A stretch of 64,000 nt of DNA from Acidimicrobiaceae bacterium (GCA_030837965.1 JAUTXP010000058.1:62001-126000); one strand, 5' to 3'. Shown: positions 2,270-16,640, counted from the stretch's first letter. Translations and numbers: made by a program. The notes: a model not told the origin generated them from the letters alone.

Positions 2270-2619
2270 GGGGGTGACTGGCTTCGACTTCAGTCATCGA
2301 AGCGGAAGAAGCGAGCCGTGGTCTCCGGAGCCACGTTAAAGAGCCGGAACCAAAAACAAACGCCGACGACAACGTCGCGCTCGCTGCCTAAACCACAGCG
2401 ACGTCAGCCCGGCCCCGGTCCTGCGGGTCGGATGCTGACGCCATCTAGCAGGACTCACCTGACCGGCCTCGTCAACGGGCCGGACGGGGAAAACTCAGTT
2501 GACTGGGGCCTCGCACCGATGCCGGTGACGACGCGAGGCCCGAGACCCTTCCACCGGCTGCGCTCGGAGAAGTCCCGTTGAGAGGCCGAAGGACGCGGGT
2601 TCGATTCCCGCCACCTCCA
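2270..2619 (+). ncRNA. ssrA: tmRNA (transfer-messenger RNA)
   Basis: The tmRNA rescues stalled ribosomes and appends a degradation tag, working with SmpB. The 5' end GGGGGTGACTGGCTTCGAC pairs with the 3' CACCTCC at 2612-2618 to give a 7-bp acceptor stem with one G-U pair. A T-arm (GGTTCGATTCC) precedes it. The tag reading frame runs 2341-2391, EPEPKTNADDNVALAA then TAA. The ALAA end is diagnostic; the resume codon (GAG 2341) is inferred from spacing. CCA is not encoded: base 2619 (A) is followed by CT. The accessory island begins immediately after it. Confidence 0.95.
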
Positions 2620-3238
2620 CTCCGCTCGTCTTGTACCAACACCCCGATGCCGCGGCCGGGGTCAGCGCCGGCCCAGTTTCGCGGGTCGGGTAGCCCAGCC
2701 AGCGCCCGGAACGTGGACAGGATTCGCTGGCGGTGCCCGACCACAAGCTCGTGGACGAACGCCTGGGCGACCATCTTGCGCACCTCGTCCGGGGCGCTCT
2801 CGATAAGCGCCCGCAACTCGGCGTGCAGGGCCGACAACTGCTCTACAGACGGGACGTAGGCAGCGAGGGCCGACCGGCCAACCGCGTCTGCCGCCTCGGC
2901 CCGCCGCGCCCGCAGGCTCCCGGCCTGCCGCCGGAGTTCGTGAATGCGGCCGGCGAACATCTCCTCGGTCAGCCGCCCGTTCTCGAATGCGATCATGTAC
3001 CGCTCGATCGCCGCCTCGACGCGCCGCAGCTCGACGTCGAGCGCGGCCACCTCCTGCTCCGCCCGCTCCGCCGCCTGCTCGCCGTCGCCGGCGGTCGCCG
3101 CGATGGCTTCGCGGACGGCGTGGGGCTTGCCGTAGACATCGAGCAGGGCTGCGAGCACCGCCTCCTCCAACTCGTCCGCGCGGATCGGCTCGGCGTTGCA
3201 CGCGGCGGTGCCGTAGCGGTGGCGCGTCCAGCACCGGG
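2472..3238 (-). pseudogene. Large serine recombinase, C-terminal stump
   Basis: This is the tail of a large serine (phage or ICE type) site-specific recombinase; the catalytic and first DNA-binding domains are missing. What remains is the end of the zinc-ribbon region (ACNAEPIRADELEEAVLAAL) followed by a long charged coiled coil (EQEVAALDVELRRVEAAIER, MIAFENGRLTEEMF) and the tail RQRILSTFRALAGLPDPRN. The 5' part is removed at 3238 by the IS3-like element. There is no stop before the attachment site: the frame runs on antisense through the 3' end of ssrA to 2472. The coding sequence proper should end near 2640. It marks the left end of an element integrated at ssrA. Confidence 0.8.
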
Positions 3239-3284
3239 TGAACCGCCCCGGGTTTTGTGGAGGCTCCACACTCCACGAGAGAGG

Positions 3285-3614
3285 ATGGAGCCCATGGGAA
3301 CGACGAACAAGCACCCCGCCGAGCTGCGCGAGCGGGCGGTGCGGATGGTCCAGGAGTGGCGGGAGGCCCGGGGGCGCCCCGACGGGGGCTCGGCCGAGGT
3401 GGCGGACAAGCTCGGCGTGCACCCCTCGACCGTCCGCGAGTGGGTGCGGCGCAGCGAGGTCGACGGCGGCCGCCGCCCCGGCCTGACGGCGGACGAGCGC
3501 GCCCGCCTGGCCGCCCTCGAGCGGGAGAACCGCGAGCTGCGGCGGGCCAACGAGATCCTCAAGGCGGCGTCGGCTTTCTTCGCGCGGGAGCCCGGCCCGC
3601 GCCTGCCGAGGTGA
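3285..3614 (+). CDS. IS3-family transposase OrfA
   Basis: A 109-residue DNA-binding subunit of an IS3-type transposase. It has the family's N-terminal helix-turn-helix (ELRERAVRMVQEW, then KLGVHPSTVREWVRRSEVD) and the C-terminal leucine-zipper-like helix RLAALERENRELRRANEILKAAS that pairs OrfA with OrfAB. The ATG at 3285 (MEPMGTTNKH) follows GAGAG; the ATG at 3294 is an alternative. Its stop overlaps the GTG that opens orfB in the adjacent frame. It is intact, unlike orfB. Confidence 0.9.
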   Translation: MEPMGTTNKHPAELRERAVRMVQEWREARGRPDGGSAEVADKLGVHPSTVREWVRRSEVDGGRRPGLTADERARLAALERENRELRRANEILKAASAFFAREPGPRLPR

Positions 3615-4547
3615 GCGCCTTCGTCGAGGCGCACCGGGGACGGACCACCGCGGGCCTGCGCTGGGGGGCCGGGCCGGTCTGCGAGGCGCTCGCGGCCGCC
3701 CCGTCCAGCTACTACGCGGCCAGGGGGCCGCCCGCCGTGCGCCCGGCGCCTGCGCGACGAGGCGCTCAGGCCCGAGGTGCTGCGCGTGTCGAGGCCGACT
3801 ACCGCGCCTACGGGGCCCGCAAGGTGTGGCGCCGGCTCAGCCGCGAGGGCCACGCGGCGGCGCGCTGCACGGTCGAGCGCCTCATGCGCGAGATGGGCCT
3901 GGCGGGCCGGGTCCGGGGGCGCAGGGCCCGCACGACCACGGCGGACCCCGCCGCCGCCCGCCCGGCGGACCTGGTGGAGCGCCGCTTCGCGGCCCGCGCC
4001 CCCAACCGCCTCCGGGTGGCCGACATCACCTACGTCGCCACCTGGTCGGGCTTCGCCTACGCCGCGTTCGTGACGACGTGTTCTCGCGCCGGATCGTGGG
4101 CTGGAGGGTCTCCAACACGCTGCGGGCCGACCTGGCCCTCGACACGCGCTCGAGACGGCGGTCTGGAGCCGGCGGGGCGACGAGCTCGACGGCCTCGTGC
4201 ACCACAGCGACCGCGGGGTGCAGTACCTGTCCATCCGCTACACCGAGCGACTCGCGGCCGAGGGCGCGGTGGCGAGCGTGGGGTCCAGGGGCGACAGCTA
4301 CGACAACGCCATGGCGGAGTCGGTCATCGGGCTCTACAAGGCCGAGTTGATCACCGCCCGCGGACCGTGGCGCACTGTCGAAGACGTCGAGCCGGCCACC
4401 CTCGGCTGGGTCGACTGGTGGAACACGAGGCGCCTCCACTCGGCCATCGGCCATGTGCCGCCCGCCGAGTTGGAGGACGAGTGGCTGAAAGAGGCGGCCG
4501 CGGGAGAGACTCGCGAAGGGCGCGCCGCTGTATTGGCAGGCACGTAA
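3611..4547 (+). pseudogene. IS3-family transposase OrfB (rve/DDE), frameshifted
   Basis: Catalytic part of the transposase, spread over three frames. The order of recognisable pieces is SAFVEAHRGRTTAGLRW; a piece readable only in another frame as LRDEALRPEVLRV (about 3740-3785); EADYRAYGARKVWRRL; RVADITYVATW with the first catalytic Asp; then a shift near 4070 to DVFSRRIVGWRVSN, another near 4145, and HHSDRGVQY (second Asp) to SYDNAMAESVIGLYKAEL (Glu). All three DDE residues can be found but no continuous frame joins them. At least four single-base shifts are needed, so it is non-functional unless the bases are wrong. Confidence 0.85.
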
Positions 4548-4579
4548 CGAACAGCCTCCACAAAACCCGGGGCGGTTCA

Positions 4580-10370: not shown

Positions 10371-10432
10371 CACCGGTCGCCGTCACCAAACCCTGAGCGG
10401 CGTGTTCGGCGGGCACAGCGTCAGCACCGGGC
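10371..10432 (-). repeat. Approximately 62-bp repeat, copy A
   Basis: Matches 11351-11412 closely: both contain ACCGGTCGCCGTCACC and GAGCGGCGTGTT, then GGGCACAGCG. On the minus strand both read as the end of an open frame, PVLTLCPPNTPLR here and PVLALCPPNTPLR in copy B. A weaker relative precedes the repeat copy at 13868. Confidence 0.65.
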
Positions 10433-10436
10433 TGTC

Positions 10437-10505
10437 ATGGTTTCGCGGGTCGGGTAGCTCACCCACCGCCCGGAACGTGGACAGGCTTCGCTGGCGGTGG
10501 CGGGC
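10437..10505 (-). pseudogene. Relic of a serine recombinase C-terminus
   Basis: Bases 10441-10499 match 2677-2735, inside the recombinase stump, at 55 of 59 positions by eye. Minus-strand translation gives RQRSLSTFRAVGELPDPRN against RQRILSTFRALAGLPDPRN. Here the frame continues into the 62-bp repeat (HDSPVLTLCPPNTPLRVW) and stops. It is a second, different recombinase tail, presumably from another integration or a duplication. Confidence 0.7.
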
Positions 10506-10949: not shown

Positions 10950-11430
10950 GGAGTCCTCCCGACCCAATCGTCACGATTGTAGTGATTTCATCGCAGTGTG
11001 GCACAAGTGCGAGTGCCTTCGATACCCCCCCAAATGGGGGGAATTCCCTGACCAGATGATCTCGGCAAGCTGCTTCGGTGTCCACGTTGGCTCGATGGCC
11101 GACGTGGCGATCCTGGCCAGTTCCTTTGTGTGAGTCGATCGCCCAGCACGTTAAGTGCGGGACGCCCAGTACCCACGTTCGCCGCCCCGACGCTGCGCGT
11201 GTGGCGTACGCACGTCTCCTGCCCTGCACGGCTCCGAGCTCGCGCCTGAGTTCCTCCTTCGAAATACCCACACATCGAGATCCTGGGCTGGGGGCTCGTT
11301 CATCCCCAACGGGTTTCTCCGGGCGCAGCGTCGAGTTGGTCGGGGGCGGCTACCGGTCGCCGTCACCCGCCCGGAGCGGCGTGTTGGGTGGGCACAGCGC
11401 CAGTACCGGGCCGGGGATCGTCGCTTGGGG
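10950..11430. other. Gene-free stretch before the cassette-like array
   Basis: No supportable gene. It holds a short perfect palindrome around 11024-11040 (CCCCCC-AAAT-GGGGGG type) and repeat copy B at 11351-11412. The first 83-bp element begins at its right edge. By analogy with integrons, an attI-like site or promoter could lie here, but I see no direct evidence. Confidence 0.4.
11351..11412 (-). repeat. Approximately 62-bp repeat, copy B
   Basis: Second copy of the segment at 10371-10432, one base shorter and with about ten substitutions. It ends 18 bases before the first 83-bp inverted-repeat element (11431), so in this copy the two repeats form one composite of about 160 bp. Confidence 0.65.
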
Positions 11431-11513
11431 GGTGTTCGTACAATGACACCCCAGGACCACCAAGCTCTTGACCTGCGGTTTCGCGCGGGGCCGGGTGCCA
11501 TTGTGCGAACACC
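11431..11513 (+). repeat. 83-bp attC-like element, copy R1
   Basis: Left arm GGTGTTCGTACAATGACACC at 11431-11450 pairs with the right arm at 11494-11513 (GGTGCCATTGTGCGAACACC). The 43-base interior contains GACCACCAAGCTCTTGACC. It is the first of a series of elements that alternate with genes to 16.6 kb. Within the arms, CACAAT and ATTGTG occupy the positions that the R'' and R' boxes would take in an integron attC. Confidence 0.8.
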
Positions 11514-11563
11514 TCTCTCCTCCAGAGTGGATCCGAATGTTCGGGAGGGAGGAACATTGACCA

Positions 11564-12448
11564 ATGACACTCCCGCCCCTGGATGCTCCGGACCTCGCGC
11601 CATGGGGGCTCACGGGTGTCGTCGTCGGCACTGCGCGCTCGACCTTCCCAGGCCGAGCGGTCTACCCGGTTCAGTCGGACCAAGGAGTGTTTGCCGCCAA
11701 GGTGTCTCGACGGACCTCGCAACCCAATCCGGGCAGCGAAGACTCGATACGTCTGCTGGAGTACCTCCAGGCGCGGGGGTTGCTCCACGTACCGACGCCC
11801 CTGCGGACTCTCGACGGGCATGCGAGCGCCGCGTCGGGCGGGAGCGACATCACGGTCCTGGAGTTCGTTCCGCGCCCGCTCTACGCCGAGGCGACACCGC
11901 CGGCGTCCGCTTGGAGCGACCTGGGCGCGGCTGCCGCTGCATTGAACGACATCACGGGCTACCCCCGCCGATTCGCGGTCCCGGTGGACGAAGCCCTCGT
12001 CCACCTCCGGGCCCGGTCCGAGCAGGCGGCGTTCGAAAGGCCGTTTCGCGATGCCCTGGCGCGGGCGTCTCAGGTGACCGAGTCCAGTCGGGCGGCGCTC
12101 ATCCACGGTGAGATCAATGAGGCGAACGCACTCCGCCGACACGACGGGACGGTCGTGCTCGTCGACTGGGACCAGGCGGGAACCGGGCCCGTGGCGCTCG
12201 AGCTCGGATACCCCCTGATCATCGCCTTCGTCGATATAGACACGCACCGACTCCACGAGCAGCGAGCAAAGGCTTTCTATGACGCGTACCGAAGCTCCGG
12301 CGGCATCGTTGACCCGCTGGCGACCTTCGCGGCGGCGGTCTTTCATGCTCTGCGGTACATGTGGTTCGCGGACGTCGACAGGCGATGGGACCGAATCTCC
12401 TGGGCGCTCCGGAATGAGTCGCAGTTGCTCGACGTGGTCGCCGGATAG
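11564..12448 (+). CDS. Aminoglycoside-phosphotransferase-like kinase
   Basis: A 294-residue APH/choline-kinase-fold protein. The catalytic loop reads ALIHGEINEANALRR and the metal-binding segment VLVDWDQAGTGP, spaced as in the family. The usual HGD aspartate is Glu here (HGE), a conservative but rare change at the proposed catalytic base. The N-terminal lobe is short (VFAAKVSRRT would carry the ATP-binding Lys). It could phosphorylate an aminoglycoside, a macrolide or another small molecule. It lies alone between repeat copies R1 and R2, as a resistance cassette would. ATG at 11564. Confidence 0.8.
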   Translation: MTLPPLDAPDLAPWGLTGVVVGTARSTFPGRAVYPVQSDQGVFAAKVSRRTSQPNPGSEDSIRLLEYLQARGLLHVPTPLRTLDGHASAASGGSDITVLEFVPRPLYAEATPPASAWSDLGAAAAALNDITGYPRRFAVPVDEALVHLRARSEQAAFERPFRDALARASQVTESSRAALIHGEINEANALRRHDGTVVLVDWDQAGTGPVALELGYPLIIAFVDIDTHRLHEQRAKAFYDAYRSSGGIVDPLATFAAAVFHALRYMWFADVDRRWDRISWALRNESQLLDVVAG

Positions 12449-12550
12449 CGTCGAGTCCTCCCCACAGGCGTCGCCCCGGACCTACCGTCCCCCCACGTCG
12501 AAGCGTCGTGCGCCCAGCGCCAGAGCAGGACCGGGGACGAGTCCGAGCGG

Positions 12551-12632
12551 GGTGTTCGCATGATGACACCCCACGTCCACCAAGCCGCTGACCTGGGTTT
12601 CGTACACGGGCGCGTGTCGTTGTGCGAAGAGC
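12551..12632 (+). repeat. 83-bp attC-like element, copy R2
   Basis: Left arm GGTGTTCGCATGATGACACC at 12551-12570; right arm around 12613-12632 contains GTGTCGTTGTGCGAA and then diverges (GAGC for CACC). The interior keeps GTCCACCAAGCCGCTGACC. It is one base shorter than R1 and R3. It separates the phosphotransferase from the P-loop kinase. Confidence 0.78.
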
Positions 12633-12664
12633 CTGCGCTGCTCTTGTTCGTACATCATGGCTCC

Positions 12665-13135
12665 GTGGCTACGGCATACCTCGTGCACGGTTTCCTGGGA
12701 GCAGGCAAGACGACTTTCGCCGAAGCGTTGGCGCAGTCATCCGGCGGCATACGTCTGTCTCTAGACGAGTGGTACCTGCGACTGTTCGCCGACGCTCCGA
12801 CCGAGCACCTCGACGCGGCATCGTGGAAGAGGCTCGACGCGATGATGGCCGACATGTGGCCTCAGATGCTTCGCAGCGGCGTGGACGTGGTCTTGGACTT
12901 CGGCTTCTGGACCCGCCCCTCACGCGACCGAGCCCGCTCGGCCGCTGCGGCGGTCGGTGCCGACACCATTCTGTATCTCGTGACGTGTGACGACGCAGTC
13001 GCCCTCGGTCGGTGCTTGGCACGCAACTCGCTTGGCGGACCCAGCTTCATCATCACGCCCGCAGGGTTCGAAGAGATGCGGTCGCGGTTCGAGCCCTTGG
13101 GCCATGACGAGGCTCACGTCCTCGTGGAGACGTAG
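12665..13135 (+). CDS. P-loop kinase (AAA_33 / Zeta-CPT-like), 156 aa
   Basis: A compact nucleotide-binding protein with Walker A GFLGAGKTTFA at residues 9-19 and a hydrophobic strand ending in Asp (VDVVLDFGFW) that suits the second metal- or substrate-binding site. The size and LSLDEWYLRL segment after the P-loop resemble small-molecule kinases such as chloramphenicol phosphotransferase and zeta-like kinases. The substrate is unknown. I chose GTG 12665 (VATAYLVHGFLG); the frame reaches further upstream but that part lies in repeat R2. It fills one unit between R2 and R3. Confidence 0.75.
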   Translation: MATAYLVHGFLGAGKTTFAEALAQSSGGIRLSLDEWYLRLFADAPTEHLDAASWKRLDAMMADMWPQMLRSGVDVVLDFGFWTRPSRDRARSAAAAVGADTILYLVTCDDAVALGRCLARNSLGGPSFIITPAGFEEMRSRFEPLGHDEAHVLVET

Positions 13136-13236
13136 GCGCGCCAGGAACGCGAGGCCGGTCCTCAGCGATCTCCGCCGCGTCGTCGTAACACTGCATACGG
13201 GCGACCGAGGCGAAGCGGCGGCTGGCTTGCAGCGCG

Positions 13237-13319
13237 GGTGTTCGCATAATGACACCCCAGGTCCACTGCGCCGCTGACCTGCGGTTTCGCACGCGGGCCG
13301 GTGTCGTTGTGCGAACACC
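13237..13319 (+). repeat. 83-bp attC-like element, copy R3 (best copy)
   Basis: The most regular copy: GGTGTTCGCATAATGACACC at 13237-13256 and GGTGTCGTTGTGCGAACACC at 13300-13319 are complementary at all positions but two (one of them a G-T wobble), around a 43-base interior. The interior itself holds AGGTC...GACCT, able to form an inner stem. The outer arms include GCATAAT and GTTGTGC in attC R''/R' orientation; GTTGTGC misses the GTTRRRY consensus at one base. Confidence 0.85.
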
Positions 13320-13328
13320 GCCCTTTAC

Positions 13329-13759
13329 TCAGGGCCAGATCAGTTGCTCGATGCCGCCTGGGACGAGTTCGCAGGCCCCACGTCCGCAGGGCCGCCACCG
13401 CACGCGGACGCGCCCCGTCGGGTCGTCGCGTATCGTCTGCTCCGCGATCTCGTACGCCGACTGATCCACGAACCGCCCTTCTAATACGAAGACGATCTCG
13501 TGCGCTGGTTCTCCGTCCAGTTCGAAGATGTTCTCGAGCACGCCGAGCAGCCCGAGGTCGTCGACCTGCTGCGGATCTCGCGGATCTCGCGGACCGCGGC
13601 GTTGGCGGCTCGCTCTCCGAACCCGACGTGTCCGCCGAGAGGTCGCTCGAAATGTCGCCCAGATCCGTCCTCGTTCTCGGACACGAGGATCGCTCCATCC
13701 CTCGGCCGTCGGATGACCACCATCGCCTTGTTGACCTGACGCGACACGTTGCGAGTCAA
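13329..13759 (-). pseudogene. NUDIX hydrolase, one frameshift
   Basis: The N-terminal frame (start 13759) contains AMVVIRRPRDGAILVSEN, PLGGHVGFGERAANAAVREI, the beginning of the NUDIX box G-x5-E-x7-R-E. Just after the REIREI stretch the frame is lost, and the protein continues in a second frame as QQVDDLGLLGVLENIFELDG, EIVFVLEGRF and so on to a stop at 13329. The shift falls inside a 9-bp direct duplication (CGGATCTCG twice, about 13572-13590), a typical slippage site. NUDIX enzymes hydrolyse nucleoside diphosphate derivatives. It is the only unit in the array on the minus strand, and it reads into R3. Confidence 0.8.
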
Positions 13760-13867
13760 TCAGTTGCAGCGCTCAACTCGCTACCTGTCACTGGCATCTG
13801 TCCTGAGCGTCATGTTCGGCGGAGAGAGTGCTAGCGCGGGGCCCGGCAGCGTCGCGGCCGAGTGCGG

Positions 13868-13907
13868 AGTGTTCGCACAATGACACCCCTACGTCCACTG
13901 GCATGAC
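13868..13907 (+). repeat. attC-like element, copy R4 (left half only)
   Basis: AGTGTTCGCACAATGACACC at 13868-13887 and the following CGTCCACTGG...ATGACC match the left arm and interior of R3. The right arm is not recognisable. A degraded relative of the 62-bp repeat precedes it (about 13803-13850, GTTCGGCGG). The copy has probably lost its right end by deletion. Confidence 0.65.
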
Positions 13908-14023
13908 CACGCAAGAACCGGCTCGCCTCGTTCGGCAAGGCGGCTTACGGGACTCGGAACCACGCGGTCGCAACGCTTGGACGGAGCACGATCAGCGGTG
14001 ACAGACAATGGCATTCTGTTGGG

Positions 14024-15154
14024 GTGCCAATTGTCCACCCACGGCCGACAGAAGCTACTGCCAAGGAGCTGTACGCGAACGCTTTTAGGTGTGCAGCGCC
14101 CGACTGCCAGCAACCGCTCTATCGAGTCGAACCGGAATCGTGGATGCAAACGCTGAACTCGCGGATTGCTCATATCTGTGCGAGAAGCGAAGGGGGTCCT
14201 CGGTGGGATCCGGACATGTCATCCGAGGAGAACCGTTCGCGGACCAACCTGCTGGTGCTATGCCTTGCGCACGCGGCAGAGGTGGATGCCCCCGAGCGGG
14301 TGAATCGATTTCCCGCGGATCTCCTGAAGGAATGGAAGAGGTCACAGCTTGAGGAATTTGATCGAGTACGGCGAGGGTGGGCCTTGAGCGACGACGACGT
14401 AGCGAGCGTTCTCCAGCTCACTCTCGGGTCCAATGCAATAGCCATCGTGCAGTCGGAGGCCGCGCTTGGCGGTGCAGGGGGTGCCGCTCCCGGCGCCGGT
14501 GGGGGTGGCGGAGGCGCTGTTGGGCACGGTGCGATCGCGGGAGATGGTGGATCGGGCGGCGAGATCGTGTGGGTGACCTTACCTGCCGAGGACTTGCCCG
14601 ACTCGATCACGGTCACCGTCGGTCAAGGCGGCGAAACGGGTGTAGACGGTGGCGACAGCAGCGACGGCGGCAACACATCGTTCGGCGATCTCATACTTGC
14701 GCGTGGTGGCAAGGGCGGAAAGGACGCCAATACCAAAATGGCCGAGATGGCCGCTGTCCTCATCGACCGGCTGACGGTAGCCGCGCTGTTCTTCGCGGAC
14801 CACGCTCAGGTGCGCGACGGCTTGCTCTTCGTCTCCGGTGGAGGGTGGGGCCTCTACAACGTCCCCTCGAATGCTGTGATCGCTGGGGCCGTTGTGTTCG
14901 TGCTTGACCTCCTGCCGGGCGACAAGTCTGGCGTTCTCCCGTTGGCCGTTGAGTTGCAGGACCCTGCGGGGCTCTCTCGGTGGGCGTCGCCCTTTGACGT
15001 GGAGTTCGTATCGACGGAGACTGCCGTACGGATGTGCTTGGTCTACCCCTTCGCTACCAACGCGGACGTGGAAGGCCGATGGTCGGCGCGCATCCTCCTT
15101 GAGAGCGGAACAGTGGTTGCAACGCACCACATCGACATTCGACTCGGAGACTGA
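14024..15154 (+). CDS. HNH-like domain + Gly-rich linker + C-terminal globular domain
   Basis: A 376-residue mosaic. Residues 20-95 resemble an HNH nuclease: CAAPDCQQPLYR, SRIAHICARSEGGPRWDP, NRSRTNLLVLCLAHAAEVD. Residues about 145-235 are an almost pure Gly/Ala-rich segment (GGGGGGAVGHGAIAGDGG) as found in tail fibres and structural linkers. The last 135 residues (ALFFADHAQVRDGLLFVSGG, LPLAVELQDPAGL) form a separate domain that I associate with an uncharacterised actinobacterial family. The GTG at 14024 (VPIVHPRPT) is the start. The combination suggests a nuclease tethered by a flexible linker. It occupies the unit between R4 and R5. Confidence 0.7.
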   Translation: MPIVHPRPTEATAKELYANAFRCAAPDCQQPLYRVEPESWMQTLNSRIAHICARSEGGPRWDPDMSSEENRSRTNLLVLCLAHAAEVDAPERVNRFPADLLKEWKRSQLEEFDRVRRGWALSDDDVASVLQLTLGSNAIAIVQSEAALGGAGGAAPGAGGGGGGAVGHGAIAGDGGSGGEIVWVTLPAEDLPDSITVTVGQGGETGVDGGDSSDGGNTSFGDLILARGGKGGKDANTKMAEMAAVLIDRLTVAALFFADHAQVRDGLLFVSGGGWGLYNVPSNAVIAGAVVFVLDLLPGDKSGVLPLAVELQDPAGLSRWASPFDVEFVSTETAVRMCLVYPFATNADVEGRWSARILLESGTVVATHHIDIRLGD

Positions 15155-15251
15155 GCGATTCCGGGCATCACCCGAGCGCGCGGAATCCACCATCAGGGAG
15201 ACCACGGGCGGCCCGTCAGGTCGATCCCCGTGCGCTCACCAAGGGTCACAC

Positions 15252-15332
15252 GGCTCGGGTTGTGCCCTTCCAGCCCCACCGAGTTCCTGACCTGCGACGT
15301 TGCGCAGCAAGTAAACCGTCGTGCGAACACCC
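15252..15332 (+). repeat. attC-like element, copy R5 (degraded)
   Basis: The right part, CTGACCTGCG at 15287 through CGTCGTGCGAACACC ending at 15332, is clearly the family sequence. The interior CCAGCCCCACCGAGTTCCTGACC aligns with R1, but the left arm is poorly conserved. It separates the HNH/Gly-rich gene from the DUF4160/DUF2442 pair. Confidence 0.6.
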
Positions 15333-15359
15333 TGGTTGGTTCGACCATGATGCCGGGCG

Positions 15360-15617
15360 ATGCCTCGACTGTCAGCGTTCTACGGCGTCGTCATCTACAT
15401 GTACTGGCGTGATCACTCCCCGCCACACTTCCATGCCGAGTACGGCGACCAGGAAGCACCCATCGTGATCGGCGACGGACGCGTCTACGCCGGTTCGCTG
15501 CCGCCGCGCGCCCTCCGAATGGTCAGGGAGTGGCGCCTGCATCTGGACGAACTTCATCGGGCGTGGGCGCTCGCGTCCAGCCGTGAGGACCCCGGTACCA
15601 TTGAGCCGCTGCCATGA
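15360..15617 (+). CDS. DUF4160 protein, toxin-antitoxin-like pair member
   Basis: An 85-residue protein with the DUF4160 signature: YGVVIYMYWRDHSPPHFHAE, IVIGDGRVYAGSLPPRALRMV and EWRLHLDELHRAWALA. DUF4160 genes are usually paired with DUF2442, as here, and the pair is often regarded as a candidate toxin-antitoxin or addiction module; the biochemical role is not established. The gene overlaps the next by four bases (ATGA), so translation is likely coupled. Pairs of this kind are frequent in integron cassette arrays. Confidence 0.85.
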   Translation: MPRLSAFYGVVIYMYWRDHSPPHFHAEYGDQEAPIVIGDGRVYAGSLPPRALRMVREWRLHLDELHRAWALASSREDPGTIEPLP

Positions 15618-15892
15618 AGAGAACCATCAGGATTCCCAAGGTCACCGCCGTAGAGGTACAGCCGCCGTACGCGCTGCGTCTCACGTTCGACGACGGCATG
15701 ACGCGTGAATTGGACTTGGCCTACGAACTCTGGGGTCCCATGTTTGAGTCGTTGAGGGACCCGGCATTCTTCGCTCAGGTCGTCGTCGAGCATGGCACCG
15801 TCGTGTGGCCGAACGGGGTCGACCTCGACCCGTTGGTCCTCCACGGCGACTTCGAGCCCGCTATCTCGCAGAACCAGCAACAAGTCGTCTAG
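15614..15892 (+). CDS. DUF2442 protein, partner of DUF4160
   Basis: A 92-residue protein: KVTAVEVQPPYALRLTFDDG, ELDLAYELWGPMFESLRDP, and WPNGVDLDPLVLHGDFEP. These are the hallmark strands of DUF2442. Its ATG lies in the stop of DUF4160. No DNA-binding motif is evident. A truncated IS481-like element begins 2 bases after the stop, so the 3' end of the unit has been overrun. Confidence 0.87.
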   Translation: MKRTIRIPKVTAVEVQPPYALRLTFDDGMTRELDLAYELWGPMFESLRDPAFFAQVVVEHGTVVWPNGVDLDPLVLHGDFEPAISQNQQQVV

Positions 15893-15893
15893 C

Positions 15894-16384
15894 TGTGACA
15901 ACCGGGGACGTTGTCCCTGACGGGACGGGGTGAGTGGTCCACCGATGAGTTGAGCCCTCCGAGCGACGCTGTGGGTCTTCCACAACTCCCGGCTCACAAG
16001 GAGGGCTCAGTGGCCCACGCTGGAAGCCGGCACCCGAACGCGGTGCTGACCCCGACCGGCCGCCGCCGCATGGTGGCCTGCGTCATCGAGCGGCGATGGA
16101 CGGTCGAGGCGACCGCCGAGCGGTTCCAGGTCGACCCGAAGACGGTCCACAAGTGGCGTGACCGGTTCCTCGCTGCGGGCAAGGACGGCCTGCGGGACCG
16201 GTCGAGCCGGACTCGGCGCTCACCGAGCCGGACGCCTCGGCCGCTCCGCCGTCGGGTGATTCCGCTCCGGCGCAGCCGCCGCTGGGGCGGCGACCGGATC
16301 GCCTGCGAGCTCGGTCTGGCGTGGGCAGCCACAACGTCGAACTCATTGAGTACACCCCTGGGGTGCCTCGTTCAGGCCGGCTGA
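15894..16384 (+). mobile_element. Truncated IS481-like element
   Basis: A left end beginning TGTGACAACCGGGGACG is followed from about 16011 by the N-terminus of an IS481-type transposase: LTPTGRRRMVACVIERRWTV, the helix-turn-helix RFQVDPKTVHKWRDRFLAAG, LRDRSSRTRRSPSRTP and RRWGGDRIACELGLA. The frame then ends in unrelated sequence; the rve/DDE catalytic domain and the right end are missing. It cannot transpose by itself. Confidence 0.8.
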
Positions 16385-16557
16385 GCAACTTCGACCTCAG
16401 GGGGCCGCAGGGACCTGCGCCGGAACAGCCTGCGAGCGCGTAGTTTCCGGCAGCGTCATGGCTCGCAGGGCGCGCGCTATCAGTCACCGGTCGCGATCTC
16501 CGACCGGAGAACCGTGTGGCGATGCGCAAGGCGCAGTGAAGGCATCGAGGCCGCCGG

Positions 16558-16640
16558 GGTGTTCGCACAAGGACCTCCCAGGGCCACTGAGCCGCTGACC
16601 TGCGGCTTTTGCGCGGGCAACTGTCGTTGTGCGAACCACC
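16558..16640 (+). repeat. 83-bp attC-like element, copy R6
   Basis: Left arm GGTGTTCGCACAAGGACCTC at 16558; right arm around 16620-16640 contains CTGTCGTTGTGCGAACCACC. The interior keeps GGCCACTGAGCCGCTGACCT and GCGGCTTTTGCGCGGG. Outer parts still pair; the inner arm has diverged. It is the last clear copy in the series. Confidence 0.75.

Follow-up and report, generated by a model that had tools for sequence, protein, structure and literature searches.

A cassette-like gene array in an Acidimicrobiaceae genome bounded by probable attachment sites of large serine recombinases

Integrons are the textbook route by which bacteria collect single genes in arrays. Among integrative elements, those moved by large serine recombinases (LSRs) carry a symmetric attP around a short core, and the zinc-ribbon motif is shifted by 5 bp between attP and attB (PMC3783163). 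Cis-mobilizable elements (CIMEs), which are remnants of larger conjugative elements, occur as recombinase-less, att-bounded units in tandem at one target gene (PMC5704250). Here we describe an array in a 64,000-nucleotide stretch of a draft Acidimicrobiaceae genome (GCA_030837965.1, JAUTXP010000058.1:62001-126000; hereafter, the window, with positions counted from its first letter). Between positions 11431 and 16640, copies of an inverted-repeat element (R1 to R6) alternate with single genes or gene pairs. The original prediction offered three readings of this arrangement: an integron whose attC family is divergent, cassettes that depend on a different recombinase, or a repeat resembling miniature inverted-repeat transposable elements (MITEs). 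The second is the best supported of the three, and the recombinase behind the repeats is best identified as an LSR, not a tyrosine recombinase. We consider it probable, at roughly 0.7, that the repeats are att sites of LSR elements whose insertion targets are tRNA and tmRNA 3' ends, and that att-bounded units have accreted head to tail to form the array.

The six places proposed for the repeat share one orientation, with genes in between, and lie at or near the coordinates first given, but only R1, R2, R3 and R6 are full copies of about 83 bp; R4 holds only half of the element, and R5 has decayed. In the four full copies, two inverted arms of about 20 bp lie about 40 bp apart, and their pairing stands out in a shuffle test (p 0.005–0.010), which R4 and R5 fail. 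A search of the plus strand of the window with the arm GGTGTTCGTACAATGACACC, allowing up to four mismatches, matched R1, R2, R3, R4 and R6 and returned 0 matches in shuffled windows; the inverted second arm, at the same tolerance, matched at R1 and R3. R4 retains the left arm only, and the one recognisable arm of R5 is a decayed left arm.

The inverted repeat is part of a longer conserved unit than the 83 bp originally described. In all good copies the conserved DNA stretches about 80 bp further to the left of the arm, as far as a minus-strand stop codon, and reads GTG-VLGCHCTNTP...P(N)T(P)LRxGDGDR followed by the stop. Third codon positions take most of the pairwise differences in this tail (0.51; the other two positions have 0.34 and 0.26), and 272 changes are synonymous in the coding frame versus 97 and 85 in the other frames, about threefold fewer; these statistics were taken from the 36-amino-acid class only. 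As judged from sequence, the tail is protein-coding. The arm codons are conserved at all three positions, which means that the arm is under constraint at the DNA level too. No Pfam match was obtained for the conserved frame of 36–43 amino acids, and an Rfam search for structured RNA returned only tmRNA and tRNA. A free-standing microprotein was considered and rejected, since the frame continues from LSR C-termini and corresponds to a displaced LSR tail.

Reading upstream of the tail leads to large serine recombinases, for which the domains PF00239, PF07508 and PF13408 (resolvase, recombinase and zinc-ribbon) were identified in an intact LSR of genome G119 (P0002). Intact LSRs of the order finish in the codons of arm1 (G-V-R-A-M-T-P-S-V or close) and then continue into antisense tRNA or tmRNA, as in GKGVRAMTPSV followed by GRRGLEPLTPC, SPVRTMTGSV followed by GVEGLEPPTPSL, and GFRAMTPTV followed by GAEGLEPPTTAL; ARAGORN places tRNAs at the read-through spot of these LSRs. 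The LSR 3' end sits in attL; an LSR next to one att site is a feature of LSR integrative elements. In the non-integrated order the same frame crosses core and arm2 and enters the tail; examples are GVRAMTPSVDLGRHCPNTP...GSGDR on contig C74 and GVRAMTPQSGPGCHCTNTP...GSGDR plus stop on contig C1. In genome G315 the LSR C-terminus ...IHPIFRVP...VRAPSRSV runs into VLRWHDAKP...NTVIRRGVGDW and a stop. The integrase motif CGAAC is separated from the core by 18 bp in 14 of 17 element ends, and by 13 bp in every one of the five tRNA-Val targets measured; the difference matches the known 5-bp shift between attP and attB and supports the placement of attP inside the LSR gene. From the T-loop to the arm the distance is 33 in most tRNA attLs.

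The 20-bp arms are accordingly identified as putative attP half-sites of an LSR clade that inserts at tRNA and tmRNA 3' ends. The predicted attP shares its DNA with the final ~50 codons of the LSR gene, and an integrated LSR reads through arm1 and core into the antisense tRNA. On the simplest reading, insertion at a tRNA or tmRNA 3' end would swap the last ~40 residues of the LSR, with the displaced tail kept at attR. A single predicted integration system fits the arms, core and tail as well as the LSR gene and the tRNA/tmRNA junctions, and its sites bound the units of the array.

The window has the order expected from LSR integration: tmRNA, attL, LSR remnant and then the array. The tmRNA gene (ssrA; 2270–2620, plus strand; ARAGORN and Rfam RF00023), whose 3' end is the putative attB, is joined in the attL at 2621–2645 (plus strand) to a degenerate attP arm, CTTGTACCAACACC, with a T-loop to arm distance of 32. 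It is followed by an LSR C-terminal remnant comprising the zinc-ribbon and coiled-coil part (2646–3270, minus strand; PF13408), which reads into the tmRNA. An IS3-like element with a two-frame transposase, its type read from the sequence, lies at ~3250–4570 and adjoins this remnant; because of this insertion, the LSR of the window is now broken. A truncated copy of the repeat that the original prediction had overlooked, R0, lies at 10389–10436, within an LSR C-terminal remnant fused to the truncated tail PVLTLCPPNTPLR (10389–10500, minus strand).

The proposal that copies be sought across the genome and its relatives was borne out. Further copies in the same genome lie at the ends of contigs C1 (three), C6 and C74, one more is on contig C45, and others are found in arrays of related genomes. 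The C45 copy is a single arm at the 3' end of a tRNA-Glu (L039, 5258–5355), representing a second attL and a third target site in the genome. The copies on C1 lie beside a tRNA-Val, and no arm was recognised at the 3' end of that tRNA. The first 27 bases at the ends of C1, C6 and C74 (position 1 of L034, L035 and L036) are identical. A vapBC unit branches here into two different continuations, perhaps through the mixing of strains or the presence of two arrays.

Two classes of full site can be told apart: a short one spanning 56–60 bp, composed of attP-like junctions of arm2 and arm1, and a long one of 85–90 bp, which is the 83-bp element of the original prediction. The arrangement of the long site indicates that here the right end of a unit (tail, arm2 and core) meets the next unit's left end, which is distinct and 53 bp long. 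This left end is laid out as core, seven unspecified bases, a TTGACC-like motif and arm1, and was not seen at LSR genes; its geometry hardly varies among the six good examples, R1, R3, G163, G315, G338 and L093. The motif is 34–35 bp from CGAAC in R1, R2, R3, R6, G163, G338 and L093; G013 and G315a are left out of this list, as wrong anchors had been picked automatically. The half sites in the array, consisting of arm2 and tail, are predicted attR sites, and the remaining one-sided copies break at the CCAC core. In the long site it may be the TTGACC motif that serves as the working half-site. Some relatives without arms (L169 and L173) have a comparable motif after tRNA-Val, which would make it part of the target. 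A role as a promoter -35 box was considered and dropped, as there is no matching -10.

Within the window, the tail of R1 is the LSR C-terminal coding end of 36 codons (11350–11460, minus strand; GTG-VLGCHCTNTP...GDGDR and stop). It contains arm2, the attP half-site (11431–11450, plus strand), and the core CCAC (11457–11460), and is followed by the long left end (11461–11513, plus strand) with the TTGACC motif at 11468–11484 and the inverted arm1 at 11494–11513. R2 (12485–12632; tail 12485–12580 on the minus strand, arm2 12551–12570, arm1 12613–12632) and R3 (13165–13319; tail 13165–13266 on the minus strand, arm2 13237–13256, arm1 13300–13319) are full long sites. R6 (16492–16636) is likewise a full long site, with a degenerate minus-strand tail, arm2 at 16558–16577 and arm1 at about 16617–16636. 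The half site R4 (13784–13894) has a minus-strand tail and arm2 (13868–13887) without arm1, and R5 (15253–15331) is a long left end with a decayed arm2 that keeps the CTGACCTGCG motif and GTCGTGCGAACACC.

The genes of the units agree largely with those first proposed: an APH phosphotransferase (unit 1; 11564–12448, plus strand; PF01636), an AAA_33 or zeta-like P-loop kinase (unit 2; 12665–13135, plus strand; PF13671), a NUDIX gene split over two frames as a pseudogene or through a sequencing frameshift (unit 3; 13329–13759, minus strand), a Gly-rich protein (unit 4; 14024–15154, plus strand; PF21722) and the pair DUF4160 and DUF2442 (unit 5; 15360–15892, plus strand; PF13711 and PF10387). The HNH-like N-terminus proposed for the Gly-rich protein was not reported by Pfam. 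An IS481-like fragment lies within unit 5 (15994–16384). Over all units, including those of other loci, the types are APH, zeta-like kinase, NUDIX, DUF4160 with DUF2442, PIN toxin, GYD, DUF3800, ribbon-helix-helix, helix-turn-helix with nucleotidyltransferase-like, and MazF/PemK.

Units without any LSR occur in relatives, one of them alone at a tRNA-Val: in L093 a complete 0.66-kb unit carrying a GYD gene lies between the tRNA and an attR half site. L092 holds a larger LSR-less element of 4.4 kb at tRNA-Lys. In L104, a two-gene unit at tRNA-Ala is followed by a long site and then by a further unit that is shared with the tRNA-Val array of G013 (81% over 261 bp). The vapC units of C6 and C74 share 93% identity as far as the core; past it, the two sequences are unrelated. 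Turnover at the core is best indicated by these cases, but C6 and C74 are contig ends of a draft assembly. In the G013 array, adjacent units share 373 bp of their right ends at 76% (L089, 15725–16096 and 16491–16850), which suggests duplication of a unit end.

The exact arm pattern has seven matches in 84,980 species genomes, for which about two chance matches were estimated over the whole collection, and all seven are in metagenome-assembled genomes of Acidimicrobiia/Actinomycetes. The tail profile matches 15 of 397 genomes of the order and, among the sampled genomes of the phylum outside it, one genome of another order (L175, G467:C111). Arrays occur in other families, with a spacing of 0.75–1.5 kb in several (G013, G163 and G315). 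In a search of viral contigs the arm pattern had no match and the LSR query returned only a distant fragment. Within the open-access subset of the literature, we found no paper describing tRNA-associated cassette arrays of LSRs.

The array resembles integron cassettes in the size of its units, in having a single gene in each, in its uniform orientation and in the types of gene; an integron that lacks intI and has its own divergent family of attC would explain this resemblance. The original observation that the window lacks intI extends to the whole genome, as the integron integrase model TIGR02249 gave no match above cut-off in this draft, which is 98% complete. The proposed search for another tyrosine recombinase led to one PF00589 protein only, of 392 amino acids, elsewhere in the genome (G000:C71:77817–78341), without a second XerC/D partner. 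An attC has R boxes of the form RYYYAAC/GTTRRRY and an unpaired spacer at its centre. The R' candidate GTTGTGC misses GTTRRRY, as had been noted, and the arms pair as a near-perfect 20-bp stem that continues without such a spacer. Moreover, the arms belong to the LSR gene and the tRNA attL junctions, and we regard an integron as extremely improbable. A palindromic, MITE-like repeat lying between genes by chance would account for the inverted arms and the short length, but it is very unlikely given that the flanking ~80 bp are conserved as a coding tail, that half copies break at one fixed core (CCAC) and that the copies, whose arms match attP half-sites, cluster in arrays and at tRNA/tmRNA 3' ends and are not scattered.

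A closer competitor is that tandem, full LSR elements have decayed to one gene each by CIME-type accretion, so that the small units were never mobile by themselves. LSR fragments do persist at 2646–3270, at R0 and on C74, larger LSR-less elements exist, such as that at tRNA-Lys, and tandem accretion of decayed elements that keep their att sites is well documented (PMC5704250). Decay of this kind would, however, have to bring units of different families to the same size and usually to one gene or gene pair; it also leaves the special 53-bp left end, absent from LSR genes, and the lone 0.66-kb unit at tRNA-Val to be explained. We consider it unlikely.

Under the preferred reading, that of att-bounded units accreted by LSR integration, an LSR from a co-resident element would act in trans on the small units, excising them and inserting them at tRNA or tmRNA genes or into an att site nearby; gain and loss of genes at the locus would proceed unit by unit. 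Several points weigh against this reading. No excision or circle has been observed, and we infer the mobility of the units. Serine integrases normally recombine attP with attB only, unless a partner protein is present (PMC3783163). The array of this draft genome lacks an intact LSR, the closest intact relative being 46% identical; at several half sites no left end can be recognised; and in the long sites arm1 is displaced outwards by ~30 bp relative to a standard attP. An empty site for the lone L093 unit was not shown, as the joined flanks matched only the tRNA in relatives because the flank is not conserved.

It is conceivable, if still doubtful, that the system goes further and is a serine-recombinase counterpart of the integron, with dedicated single-gene cassettes that have their own left end and are captured and released singly at tRNA and tmRNA genes by an LSR in trans. 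The 53-bp left end would then regenerate the tRNA-side site after each insertion, as in the order tRNA, TTGACC motif and arm1 of L093. If true, cassette-type gene capture arose with an unrelated enzyme, here in a group of bacteria of which few mobile elements have been studied, and searches based on attC would overlook arrays built by LSRs. The analysis also yields natural LSRs with defined attP and tRNA attB sites, in which integration would swap the C-terminus of the integrase itself, a possible switch of activity.

Compared with described systems, the array is cassette-like in how it works, and its place is among LSR integrative elements and accretion islands. With integron cassette arrays it shares short single-gene units parted by one repeated recombination site; it differs in having no IntI, attI or attC, and, as expected for the LSR family, the chemistry would be that of a serine recombinase on double-stranded sites and not on folded single-strand attC. 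Staphylococcal cassette chromosome (SCC) and pseudo-SCC elements, with the serine recombinases CcrA/B, likewise include tandem and ccr-less elements, whereas their target is rlmH, their units are much larger and their recombinases would belong to a different clade. The array does not have the SCC hallmarks of ccr genes and insertion at rlmH/orfX, its target being tmRNA/tRNA. LSR elements and prophages with A118, Bxb1 and phiC31 type integrases are alike in their Resolvase, Recombinase and Zn-ribbon domains, their symmetric attP around a short core and the 5-bp motif shift (PMC3783163); here, in contrast, attP lies inside the LSR 3' end, the targets are tRNA/tmRNA 3' ends and many tandem units lack an LSR. 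Like CIMEs and the accretions of integrative conjugative and mobilizable elements (PMC5704250), the R1–R6, C1, G013 and G067 arrays consist of recombinase-less, att-bounded units in tandem at one target, but the units here are of 0.6–1.4 kb, hold one gene or a pair and have a distinct left end. What is new is the single-gene units and the predicted attP inside the LSR gene.

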